Shown here: piece by piece, positions 36,761 to 46,524 of the stretch
Layout: every line of letters begins with the position of its first letter
How positions within the stretch are numbered: the stretch's first letter is position 1
The notes under the pieces: model-generated
What the model saw: only the letters and a program-made list of their open reading frames with translations
What the model was told of the DNA's origin: nothing
Databases searched by the model: none
Source: Paroceanicella profunda
GTDB taxonomy: Bacteria > Pseudomonadota > Alphaproteobacteria > Rhodobacterales > Rhodobacteraceae
DNA: 64,000 nt
NCBI RefSeq assembly: GCF_005887635.2
Contig: NZ_CP040818.1
Location: forward strand, 2,758,501-2,822,500
Direction of reading: 5' to 3'
Program-made: the position numbers and the translations under genes

Positions 36761-36836
36761 GGGCCCGTAGCTCAACGGTCAGAGCAGGCCGCTCATAACG
36801 GCTTGGCTGGGGGTTCGAATCCCTCCGGGCCTACCA
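36761..36836 (+). tRNA. tRNA-Ile2(CAU), prophage attachment tRNA
   Basis: A 76-nt cloverleaf with encoded CCA. The acceptor is GGGCCCG/CGGGCCT (one G-T pair), the anticodon loop is CTCATAA with CAT at 36794-36796, and the T arm is GGGTTCGAATCCC. The pattern AGAGCAGGC...CTCATAA...GCTTGG is that of the lysidine-modified isoleucine tRNA (reads AUA), not initiator or elongator Met. The prophage integrase gene begins 64 bp downstream. Confidence 0.9.
36811..36836. other. probable left attachment site (attL core) in the tRNA 3' end
   Basis: The T arm and acceptor end of tRNA-Ile2, where tyrosine integrases commonly recombine. The integrase sits directly downstream and all further genes to the window end are phage. 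The core length cannot be fixed because the matching right copy lies outside the window. A directly repeated TTCAGGTTCG (36875-36884, 36899-36908) and the palindrome GGTTCGAACC next to it could be arm-type sites. Confidence 0.6.
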
Positions 36837-43650: not shown

Positions 43651-43904
43651 CACGCCGCCCTCTGACTGGCGGCAATGCACCAGCGGCGCAGGGCGTGCTC
43701 GACGGTCTCGGCATGCACCTCGATACCGAGCATGCCGAGGCGGCAGAGACCTCCCGGCCATTCGAGGCTGGCCTCGCCATCGGCCAGGAGGGCGTCCAGC
43801 AGGTCGCGCCGGTCGGCGGGGGTCTTCCGGCGGCGGAAGTCCTCGACCAGCACAAGGCGCTGGTCGGCGGGGCGGGTGAGGCAATTGCGGGAAATGCCGA
43901 TCAT
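43650..43904 (-). CDS. phage protein of unknown function
   Basis: 84 residues, ATG at 43902-43904. It begins MIGISRNCLTRPADQRLVLV and contains a helical centre (ADRRDLLDALLADGEASLEW). Coupled on both sides by overlaps. Function unknown. Confidence 0.65.
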   Translation of the reverse strand: MIGISRNCLTRPADQRLVLVEDFRRRKTPADRRDLLDALLADGEASLEWPGGLCRLGMLGIEVHAETVEHALRRWCIAASQRAA

Positions 43905-44095
43905 GCCGCGCGCTCCCGAACGAGGGGGACGTAGCGGGCCGTGCCATCGGGCGCGGTGACCATGCGGAGGGCCGGCAGGCGGCCCTCGTGCTTCAGGGTG
44001 AGCAGCGCGAGGCTGGCGAGTGAGGGGGTGTGCGGGCCGGTGCCGGTGAGGATGGCGCGGGCCTCGCTGCGGATGCGGTCAGGGTGGGTCTGCAT
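43901..44095 (-). CDS. first gene of the leftward early operon
   Basis: 64 residues, ATG at 44093-44095 behind GGGAGACG. It is basic and helical at the N-terminus (MQTHPDRIRSEARAILTG) with an Arg-rich end. It lies 30 bp from the PL -10 box, so it is the first protein made from that promoter. Function unknown. Confidence 0.65.
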   Translation of the reverse strand: MQTHPDRIRSEARAILTGTGPHTPSLASLALLTLKHEGRLPALRMVTAPDGTARYVPLVRERAA

Positions 44096-44124: not shown

Positions 44125-44175
44125 AATATGGCAAAACGGCATATGGTCGTCAAACACAAAATGTCAAAATGACAT
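44125..44175 (-). promoter_or_regulatory. PL-type promoter with two repressor operators
   Basis: On the minus strand TTGACG (-35, 44148-44153), a 17-bp spacer and CATATT (-10, 44125-44130). Operator 1, ATGCCGTTTTGCCAT (44128-44142), fills the spacer and part of the -10. Operator 2, ATGTCATTTTGACAT (44161-44175), is a perfect 6-3-6 palindrome with its centre 33 bp upstream. The layout is repeated at the Cro-side promoter. It drives the operon from 44095 to 36900. Confidence 0.75.
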
Positions 44176-44240
44176 ATTTTCTAGTGGGAGGGCCAAGCTA
44201 CAGCTACACTGCTCCGGCGCCCGGATGGCCCGGGCGCACG

Positions 44241-44265
44241 AAAAAGCCCCGCGCGAGGCGGGGCT
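44241..44265 (-). terminator. terminator of the repressor operon
   Basis: On the minus strand AGCCCCGC-N5-GCGGGGCT is followed by TTTTT (44241-44245 as A on the plus strand). It lies 95 bp past the stop of the gene that follows the repressor and before the PL region, so it closes that transcript. Confidence 0.85.
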
Positions 44266-44276
44266 GAGGAGGATGG

Positions 44277-44489
44277 ATGAAAGATGTCCTGCAGCTCGCG
44301 GCTGATCTTACAGAGAGCGCAGTGTTCTGGGCATTTCTAGAGTGGTCGCTAACTTTCGTTCATGCGGGGCAGCTCGCTTTTATGGTAATTTTGTTTCGCC
44401 GCATGTCTGCTTCTGAAAGAGCCAGGCGAAGAACTGCGGCTCTTTCTCGTGCCGCGCTCGAGGCCGGGCGGTCGTCGACCGAAATGTGA
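44277..44489 (+). CDS. possible small membrane protein on the opposite strand
   Basis: 70 residues with hydrophobic stretches (FWAFLEWSLTFVHAGQLAFMVILF) and a basic tail. GAGGAGG lies only four bases before the ATG. It overlaps the 3' end of the leftward gene 44360-44938 for 130 bases and begins next to a leftward terminator, with no clear promoter. It could be an antisense shadow; kept because of the ribosome site. Confidence 0.25.
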   Translation: MKDVLQLAADLTESAVFWAFLEWSLTFVHAGQLAFMVILFRRMSASERARRRTAALSRAALEAGRSSTEM

Positions 44490-44938
44490 CGGCAAAATAC
44501 AAAGGAATAGGTTTTAGTTTGGGAAGGGGGGATCCATGACGCGTTCAGGTCTACGCCGGAGATCTGCTGTTTAAACCCCTCTGGCTCTGGGTGTGTGAGC
44601 ATGTGCCCCCCTCCGGGGGCGCGAGTCTTGACAAGAGGTGAGATCAGTTCGGCCCATCGATGCGAGGTGCGGATGTAGTCTAACCGTATGCCTGATGGCT
44701 GATTGTTGGTGATGGAAAGTTCAGCGCTGTATGCCCGATAGGGCCCGATGTGACGTAATTCGGTGCTTGTCATTCCACCTTGACCATCGTCCTCCATCTT
44801 CGTCGTGTTCTTTATCGTTATTTCGATGGTTGGTCGGGTTTGTCGCTCTTGGTGGCGCCACCTTCTGTACTGAACATAGCCCATGCCAATGGTCAGGGAC
44901 CAATTTCCGATCCAGTTGAGATCGGCCAGCCAGCTCAC
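44360..44938 (-). CDS. lysogeny-operon protein in the rex position
   Basis: 192 residues, ATG at 44936-44938, overlapping the repressor stop by four bases, so it is translated from the repressor transcript. The N-terminus is weakly hydrophobic (LNWIGNWSLTIGMGYVQYRR) and may be a membrane anchor or signal anchor. The rest looks beta-rich (RPTIEITIKNTT, YSAELSITNNQPSGIRLDYI, KTYSFVF) with a basic helical end. I recognise no family. It is noticeably richer in A+T than its neighbours. The position matches lambda rexA, making superinfection exclusion or another lysogen-expressed trait the best guess (inference). Confidence 0.75.
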   Translation of the reverse strand: MSWLADLNWIGNWSLTIGMGYVQYRRWRHQERQTRPTIEITIKNTTKMEDDGQGGMTSTELRHIGPYRAYSAELSITNNQPSGIRLDYIRTSHRWAELISPLVKTRAPGGGHMLTHPEPEGFKQQISGVDLNASWIPPSQTKTYSFVFCRHISVDDRPASSAARERAAVLRLALSEADMRRNKITIKASCPA

Positions 44939-45561
44939 AAGGCCTTTTCCACCAAATCAGCCGGAAGCGACAGGCGCACGCGTGCTGCCCATTTCAACGC
45001 GATGTTGAACTGGTTCTCGGCCAACATGTTTACCGAGATCAGGTGGAACAGCCCGGGCTCTGTGCCCTGCTTCACCACCTTCACCCAGGCATTGCCGTCC
45101 ATGCCCTCACAGACGCAGATGTGGTTGATCGCCTCGGTGGGCACGCCCTCGTGCGTCTCGCGCCGGTAGAACAGCACGTCGCCGGGCTGGTAGGTCGGCG
45201 CCATGCTGTCGCCCTCAACCTCGACGGCGACGATACCGTGGGGTGAGAGTTCGCGCGGGCAGGTGACCTGATAGAGCCCTTCGCCCTTTGCGTAGGCGTC
45301 CACGAGTGGCACTTGGGCTCCCGCGCCGACGCGGCCGGCGACGGCGATTGAGGAGCGGTCATCTTCGATTAGATCCGCTACGCGACATCCGAGGGCCGTT
45401 GCGATGTCGATAAGAAATTCCAGCGTCAGCCGCCGGCGACCATTCTCGAGGCGAGAAACTGTCCCCTGTTCAACGCCCATGCGGGCGGCGAGCTCAGCCT
45501 GGCTGAACCCCACCTTCTTCCGGATCTGGGCAATGCGGTTTTTCATATGCGCTTCAGACAT
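44935..45561 (-). CDS. CI-type repressor, XRE HTH + S24 peptidase
   Basis: 208 residues from the ATG at 45559-45561; another ATG at 45546 is possible. The N-terminal HTH is FSQAELAARMGVEQGTVSRLENG. The hinge VAGRVGAG offers an Ala-Gly self-cleavage site. The S24 domain has the catalytic serine in EGDSMAPTYQPGD and the lysine in WVKVVKQG. It is therefore expected to be inactivated by RecA-stimulated autocleavage. It is divergent from the Cro-like gene, with shared operators between them. Confidence 0.93.
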   Translation of the reverse strand: MSEAHMKNRIAQIRKKVGFSQAELAARMGVEQGTVSRLENGRRRLTLEFLIDIATALGCRVADLIEDDRSSIAVAGRVGAGAQVPLVDAYAKGEGLYQVTCPRELSPHGIVAVEVEGDSMAPTYQPGDVLFYRRETHEGVPTEAINHICVCEGMDGNAWVKVVKQGTEPGLFHLISVNMLAENQFNIALKWAARVRLSLPADLVEKAL

Positions 45562-45581
45562 ATGTACGCAGGGAAGCGCAA

Positions 45582-45633
45582 TGGTCATTCTGGCATATAC
45601 CATATTGACATAATTATGCCGAATTGGCATTGT
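45582..45633 (+). promoter_or_regulatory. PR-type promoter with two repressor operators
   Basis: TTGACA (-35, 45605-45610), a 17-bp spacer and CATTGT (-10, 45628-45633). Operator 1, ATGCCGAATTGGCAT (45616-45630), starts 5 bp after the -35, exactly as at the leftward promoter. An imperfect operator 2, TGGTCATTCTGGCAT (45582-45596), matches 11 of 15 bases of the leftward operator 2, with its centre 34 bp upstream of operator 1. It drives the Cro-like gene and the rightward genes; the repressor's own promoter must lie in the same gap. Confidence 0.7.
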
Positions 45634-45641
45634 CCCATGCC

Positions 45642-45887
45642 ATGACAAAGCTCGCTGACTATCTCTCCGAACACGGCATCCGCCAGAAGGACTTCGCTGA
45701 TCGCGTTGGCGTCACGCAGGGCACCATCTCGCGGGCGTGCCGGAACACCGCTGGCATCAGTATGAAGCTGGCGGCGCGTATCTCGGCTGCCACAGGCAAG
45801 GCCGTCCCCGTCGAAACCTGGACCGAGCAGTACGTGCCGGTGGAGGCTCCTGCCTCCTGCTCCTCGGCAATTGCGGGGGCGGAGTAA
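45642..45887 (+). CDS. Cro-like repressor
   Basis: 81 residues, ATG at 45642, only 8 bp after the -10 box, so the message may be leaderless or nearly so. Single HTH (QKDFADRVGVTQGTISRACRN) and no peptidase domain. First gene of the rightward transcript; by analogy it shuts off repressor synthesis during lytic growth. Confidence 0.85.
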   Translation: MTKLADYLSEHGIRQKDFADRVGVTQGTISRACRNTAGISMKLAARISAATGKAVPVETWTEQYVPVEAPASCSSAIAGAE

Positions 45888-46020: not shown

Positions 46021-46524
46021 ATGCGCCCGCTTCGTCCCAATTCCTTCCACGCGATGCTCGCCGAGGCGCTCGATGCCTGCGGCCGCAAGCATGTCGAGGC
46101 CGAGCTCGGTCGCTCGCTCTCGATGATCAGCCGCTGGACCGACCCGGATGAAGAGAACGGGCGTCGCATGCCGGCCCCCGATCTCGATCTCCTGTGCCGC
46201 CGGTTCCCGGCCGCGGCCACTGTCGTCGCGCACCATTTCGCGGGGATCGCCGGCGGCTTCTTCCTGCCGGTGGAGGAGGGGGACGGCGACGTGGCCGCGG
46301 CGGCGAGCGACTTCACCATGCGGTTCGCGGACACCGCGTCCGGCGTGACGGCGGCCCTCGGCCTGGGCTCGAAGTTGCCGGGAGACCTGACGCCGGAGGA
46401 GGCGGAGGACGTGCATGCGCGCATCGTGCAGACGCAGCTCTCGCTCAACCGCCTGTCCGCCATCGTGCAGACCCGGCGTGCGCCGCAGGCCCGCCTGCGC
46501 GCGGTGGAGGCAGGTGGCAAATGA
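46021..46524 (+). CDS. phage regulatory protein in the cII position
   Basis: 167 residues, ATG at 46021 behind GGAGG. The N-terminal half resembles a short HTH (RKHVEAELGRSLSMISRWTDP), as in phage CII-type activators, and the C-terminal half is helical (TPEEAEDVHARIVQTQLSLNR). CII-like function is inferred from position and the HTH. Overlaps the next gene by four bases. Confidence 0.6.
   Translation: MRPLRPNSFHAMLAEALDACGRKHVEAELGRSLSMISRWTDPDEENGRRMPAPDLDLLCRRFPAAATVVAHHFAGIAGGFFLPVEEGDGDVAAAASDFTMRFADTASGVTAALGLGSKLPGDLTPEEAEDVHARIVQTQLSLNRLSAIVQTRRAPQARLRAVEAGGK

Follow-up and report, generated by a model that had tools for sequence, protein, structure and literature searches.

The immunity region of a prophage in Paroceanicella profunda is best explained as a lambda-like lysis-lysogeny switch in which operator pairs flank the repressor gene, and we assign this reading, including the mechanism proposed below, a probability of about 0.87. 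The switch is of the CI/Cro type with a core of two operators on each side, and a two-plus-three arrangement is possible. In the 64,000-nucleotide stretch of P. profunda DNA analyzed here (the window), the repressor has paired short palindromes on either side of its gene, and these very probably serve as the sites by which it would hold the prophage dormant; all operators named here are predicted sites. Furthermore, dozens of related phages appear, from comparison of their sequences, to have retained this layout and to have swapped the DNA-reading half of the repressor together with the matching sites.

The prophage runs from an integrase gene adjoining tRNA-Met (36761-36836) into genes for terminase, portal, major head, and tape-measure proteins, and the features of its immunity region are collected in Table 1. 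The repressor and cro-like genes are divergent, with early promoters on both sides, the right one being recognized by its -35 and spacing. The recognition helices of the two proteins are near-identical (EQGTVSRL in the repressor and TQGTISRA in Cro), as expected where two proteins share operators. The repressor also carries the features of S24 self-cleavage, namely Ala75-Gly76, which we take to be the cleavage site, and Ser119 and Lys161, presumably the catalytic residues, by comparison with lambda and LexA. A relative, Pyei1, in which matched operator pairs were found in this analysis, is induced by mitomycin C according to excerpts from one report (PMC6536676).

The true start of the repressor may be the in-frame ATG at 45588, inside OR2, to judge from the N-terminal extensions of its relatives. 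In the protein database the repressor has 181 residues, a length that implies a start at Met28 within the HTH, and this database start is probably wrong. The first gene of the left operon has no match in Pfam or PHROG, and the 192-residue orphan matched no family in searches that included both collections. This orphan occupies what we take to be the position of rex in the lambda gene order and is a candidate exclusion gene.

Table 1. Predicted and annotated features of the immunity region in the window, followed by examples of cargo at related loci (locus coordinates).
Feature	Position	Strand	Remarks
First gene of left operon	43901-44092	-	called start 31 bp from operator edge; Shine-Dalgarno-like stretch ahead
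Leftward early promoter, -10 CATATT	44130-44125	-	promoter scan
OL1, ATGCCGTTTTGCCAT as read on the - strand	44142-44128	none	within leftward promoter spacer; centre 44135; predicted from right-hand sites alone
Leftward early promoter, -35 TTGACG	44153-44148	-	promoter scan
OL2 (distal left), ATGTCAAAATGACAT	44161-44175	none	centre 44168; predicted from right-hand sites alone
Terminator-like hairpin and T run	44265-44245	-	between repressor operon and left promoter
192-aa orphan	44360-44938	-	immediately downstream of repressor
CI-like repressor, HTH_3 and S24 peptidase half	44935-45561	-	PF01381, 6.2e-16; PF00717, 1.9e-08
Repressor recognition helix, VEQGTVSRL	45448-45474	-	placed by alignment with 434 repressor
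OR2 (second right), TGGTCATTCTGGCAT	45582-45596	none	centre 45589; poorest match of the sites
Extra right-hand site, ATACCATATTGACAT	45597-45611	none	covers right -35; adjoins OR2
Rightward early promoter, -35 TTGACA	45605-45610	+	sequence and layout of relatives
OR1, ATGCCGAATTGGCAT	45616-45630	none	within rightward promoter spacer; centre 45623
Rightward early promoter, -10 CATTGT	45628-45633	+	weak, 3/6 matches; placed by spacing
Cro-like HTH protein	45642-45887	+	start codon 37 nt from first -35 base
CII-like activator (phrog_101)	46021-46524	+	PHROG match
PD-Lambda-5 A and B	L077 3945-6253		cargo between repressor and OL
RhuM/PDC-S05 protein	L011 3899-4933		cargo between repressor and OL
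HicB-like antitoxin	L034 3912-4313		cargo between repressor and OL

A sequence-only reading of this region had proposed that a 15-bp operator begins 5 bp past each early -35 and fills the spacer, and that a second operator lies upstream at a centre distance of 33 bp on the left and 34 bp on the right; all of this was borne out. Its description of the left distal site as a perfect palindrome was not, since ATGTCAAAATGACAT pairs at six of seven positions. In a motif search of the window, the same operator motif is present at both early promoters. A motif built from OR1 and the extra right-hand site alone, which provides a non-circular test, recovers the left pair, and none of 20 shuffles did so. 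With each site left out in turn, the ranks in the window were 1 for OL2, 3 for OR1, 4 for OL1, 4 for the extra site, and 10 for OR2, and the five top scores of the four- and five-site motifs are the five named sites, rather than a stoperator-like scatter. The window has three copies of the exact pattern ATGNCNNNNNGNCAT, all of them inside the two intergenic stretches (183 and 80 bp), and at least three copies were reached in 0 of 20,000 shuffles of both stretches (shuffle mean 0.0046), a post hoc test in that the pattern was derived from these very sites. The promoter scan returned the left promoter only; the right one is predicted from its -35, its spacing, and a similar layout in relatives.

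The sequence-only reading had also favored two sites per side over three. On the left two sites were found, as claimed, but on the right a strong further candidate, ATACCATATTGACAT, covers the -35 and had been overlooked; it has one mismatch to ATGNCNNNNTGNCAT and fits the motif better than TGGTCATTCTGGCAT of OR2 (fourth versus tenth when left out). An arrangement in which the repressor uses two left and three right sites (OR1, the -35 site, and OR2), in numbers like those of phage 933W, is a contender, to which we give somewhat less than even odds. A site over the -35 is also present in L005, L006, and L070 (three of 15 other long-spacing loci examined), L063 carries a third right-hand site past its second, such a site lies 15 bp beyond the second in five of the six loci of a separate repressor family (that of L151, described below), and several loci of other HTH classes have three right sites. 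However, TTGACAT doubles as -35 and half-site, so that part of the match to ATACCATATTGACAT comes free; the distance from the -35 site to OR1 is 19 bp in the window and 16 bp in L005, L006, and L070; and no site covers the -35 in 12 of the 16 long-spacing loci examined.

It is very improbable that the sites belong to the Cro-like protein, or to some other HTH regulator, instead of the repressor. The close likeness of the two recognition helices would permit this, but the repressor has to act at both early promoters, and family-wide the operators on both sides go with the repressor HTH and the S24 half is retained. The view that the sites are chance palindromes of AT-rich promoter DNA has a negligible claim: in the window, the slightly longer pattern ATGNCNNNNTGNCAT with one mismatch allowed shows no enrichment (13 copies versus 10.86 expected), exact ATGNCNNNNNGNCAT occurs 47 times genome-wide (a control pattern 7 times; beyond the window the DNA was scanned with the exact pattern only), and tandem pairs occur in two of 394 genomes versus one for a backward control pattern, so that a lone tandem pair in a genome is unremarkable, but the left pair sits exactly at an early promoter next to the repressor operon, its presence was predicted from the right-hand sites, and the same layout recurs in relatives. 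In a same-family genome (L163, 1501-1550), tandem ATGGCTCATTGCCAT-type sites flank a CTTGAC box at a short gene that looks Arc-like by eye.

Relatives of the repressor were found at 57 viral and 42 genome loci (25-67% identity, mostly at least 45%), and their hosts, where named, are mostly Rhodobacteraceae and allies. Their HTH halves are unlike that of the window, and the S24 half is common to an alphaproteobacterial family with many HTH types. No phage with the window's HTH was found, this HTH being without a close relative in the homologue searches. The family sample consists of the loci numbered up to L097 (of 99) and the window, and loci from the genome pattern search are kept outside the family counts. 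One contig of this sample, L077, is titled Nocardioides marinus, yet its repressor falls inside the alphaproteobacterial family, and it is perhaps a contaminating contig.

Enough upstream DNA was available for 95 loci, which became 71 after removal of near-copies and 72 with the window; five with too little downstream DNA (L015, L049, L056, L057, and L093) were excluded, leaving 67. For each locus, a palindromic motif was derived from the repressor-cro region, and a pair of sites 26-37 bp apart was then sought beyond the repressor. This cro-side motif finds a second pair in 50 of the 67 nonredundant loci, the window included, and the same search found one in 1 of 1340 shuffles, 0 of 67 reversed downstream sequences, and 0 of 64 stretches upstream of cro. 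Forty-eight of the 50 pairs are credible; those of L030 and L079 look spurious and are omitted from the cross-motif, spacing, left-gene-start, and repressor-OL interval counts. Motifs of relatives give left pairs in 7 of the 19 remaining loci, with a best motif identical or closely similar to that for the right sites, although this class match is a loose test because the GGG...CCC-like classes, which hold most of the 19, overlap. Overall, a left pair is present in 55 of 67 loci, none of them plainly different in class from its own right sites, a match that is partly built into the detection for 48 of the 55; in 12 of the 67, no motif gave a left pair in the roughly 3 kb searched per locus.

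The promoter layout recurs as well. By a loose pattern, 47 of 48 credible loci have a -35-like box between their left sites, and an open frame begins at most 140 bp from the left operator in 47 of 48 (median 34 bp), preceded in 33 cases by a Shine-Dalgarno-like stretch according to automatic start calls. As in the window, the cro-proximal operator of relatives mostly starts a few bases past a TTG-type -35 and fills the spacer. In addition, the called cro start is 35-37 nt from the first -35 base in 35 of the 57 loci where both were called, and 37 nt in the window; the start codon is thus placed at the predicted transcript start, from which a leaderless cro mRNA is predicted.

Sorting the loci by HTH type, in broad single-linkage clusters, links operator sequence and spacing to the DNA-reading half. 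A motif from within the cluster finds the pair in 202 of 458 tests, and one from another cluster does so in 47 of 1798, all of these among clusters 0, 1, and 3, which have GGG...CCC-like operators. The window's left pair is found by no foreign motif, those of its own broad cluster 2 included, and its operator therefore appears to be peculiar to it among these loci; its motif in turn finds no pair in the other loci. The left spacing is 27-31 bp in all 31 credible loci of clusters 0, 1, 3, and 7 and 33-35 bp in all 17 of clusters 2, 4, 10, 11, and 12, the window (33 bp) among them, and no credible locus of the family has 32 bp within the search range of 26-37 bp. In the window's cluster, the automatic right-hand spacing is 34 bp in 8 of 12 loci, the others having 33 bp, 16 bp (twice), and, in the window, 19 bp. 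In clusters 0, 1, and 3, left sites are usually 29 bp apart, which differs by roughly half a turn from the right-hand 23-25 bp, and the value of 58 for the outer right sites is twice 29. One HTH class of the family has OR1 and OR2 24 bp apart, equal to what we take to be the lambda distance. That relatives have operators on both sides that follow the repressor HTH supports two further proposals of the sequence-only reading, namely that the sites are the OL/OR pairs of a CI/Cro-type switch and that they would set the immunity specificity of the phage.

When viral contigs were scanned for two ATGNCNNNNNGNCAT sites 33 bp apart, the search led to L151, whose S24 repressor matches that of the window weakly (27% over residues 10-141, E 5.6e-4). 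This contig and five relatives have ATGCCANNNTGGCAT-type sites in a layout much like the window's, with left pairs 32-35 bp apart in all six loci and a right pair 33-34 bp apart in five. The helix of this family, DPTAV[SN]KRL, and that of the window have a [TA]-V-[SN]-[RK] stretch in common, which supports, without proving, the assignment of the window motif to a recognition helix of this kind.

S24 halves that are up to 97% identical stand beside HTHs without BLAST similarity, as in L011/L034 and L004/L030, and 465 cross-cluster pairs have S24 halves more than 65% identical with an HTH E value above 0.1. A quickly built tree of 67 S24 halves (L054, L056, L057, L096, and L097 omitted) requires 31 changes among the six larger HTH labels, with a minimum of 5 and a shuffled mean of 36.5 (as low in 3 of 200 shuffles); because few inner branches are strongly supported (17 of 64), about thirty changes is an upper estimate. 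A blastn comparison of 11 pairs showed a common S24 part of about 390-760 bp and no common HTH-OR block; several pairs regain homology upstream of cro and past OL1, and others share only the S24 part. Homology begins between -5 and +14 bp from the outer edge of OL1 in 26 of 32 cross-cluster pairs and 3 of 23 same-cluster pairs, counts that exclude stretches starting more than 60 bp past the operator and that come from nonindependent pairs (L003 is in 10). L006 and L014 have different operator cassettes within one 1193-bp alignment at 91.7% identity; in the same homology comparison no such DNA-level pair was found for the window.

We tentatively suggest, while leaning slightly toward doubt, that the immunity region has a design suited to re-tooling. 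The fixed part would be a repressor half of ~410 bp, an island of homology between two exchangeable blocks, one of the cro side, OR, and HTH and the other of cargo genes and OL, with joins at the hinge, just past the repressor, and at the outer OL1 edge. Wholesale changes of specificity, affecting both sides, could then have occurred as many as about thirty times among the 67 sampled phages, with no mismatched hybrid seen. The interval between repressor and OL, presumably the place of lambda rex, is 25-2694 bp long (median 1064 bp, 47 loci) and holds varied cargo (Table 1); 5 of 11 different cargo proteins scanned had no Pfam match and at most a weak one in PADLOC.

In the lambda-like switch that we favor, repressor dimers on OR1 and OL1, within the rightward (cro) and leftward promoter spacers, would exclude RNA polymerase. 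Cooperative binding via the S24 half would come from the second site in each pair, which is some three helical turns off. OR2, which is beside the repressor start, would probably also tune repressor synthesis. A DNA loop may bridge OL and OR, which are ~1.45 kb apart. Cro, with its almost identical recognition helix, would compete for the same sites, and DNA damage would trigger self-cleavage of the repressor.

A change of immunity requires the repressor and several distant operators to change together, and the route by which this happens is an old question. The present family supplies dozens of natural cases in which the operators, the spacing rule, and candidate exchange joins can be read from the sequence, so that the question of specificity change becomes testable by binding assays on natural sequences. 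In addition, the family offers a way to predict the immunity groups of alphaproteobacterial prophages.

Several known systems exhibit similarities to this switch, but there are also differences. The operators of Rhizobium phage 16-3 are, we assume, of another type (ACAA/TTGT). This phage, like that of the window an alphaproteobacterial temperate phage, has the C repressor operators oL1, oL2, oR1, and oR2 (PMC12429752), and the likeness lies in the two operators per side; the window has two sites on the left and two or three on the right. In the passages on 16-3 in PMC12429752 and PMC10460002 there is nothing on HTH exchange. Lambda has the same divergent repressor and cro genes, operators over both early promoters, an S24-type repressor, and a CII-like gene after cro, but it differs in having two sets of three operators (PMC5880393), whereas the window has two on the left, and two with a third candidate on the right, and its class has pairs 33-35 bp apart. 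Stx phage 933W has 10 half-sites, that is, five operators, in the passage concerned (PMC3317979), and is comparable in its odd number of operators, a likeness of count alone that does not extend to operator sequence or spacing. In telomere phage PY54, excerpts describe leaderless cI and cro mRNAs by RACE (PMC4488713), the latter matching the prediction for the window's cro; unlike the present phage, PY54 is a linear plasmid prophage, and its Cro binds a single site. In cluster A mycobacteriophages, as far as the extracts of PMC6550527 go, the motifs of the binding sites vary along with the repressor and have a bearing on immunity, but these stoperators are many, scattered, and gradually drifting, in contrast to the palindromic promoter operators and abrupt HTH exchange seen here. 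Passages of the literature matches listed, including PMC7305329, PMC8951638, PMC10460002, PMC10090143, and PMC6536676, contain no description of these operators or of the HTH exchange, in a coverage that leaves out most subscription journals. Overall, two operators per side, five in all, and motifs that follow their repressors are known from these systems, and what appears to be new is the family-wide exchange of the HTH together with its dispersed operators.
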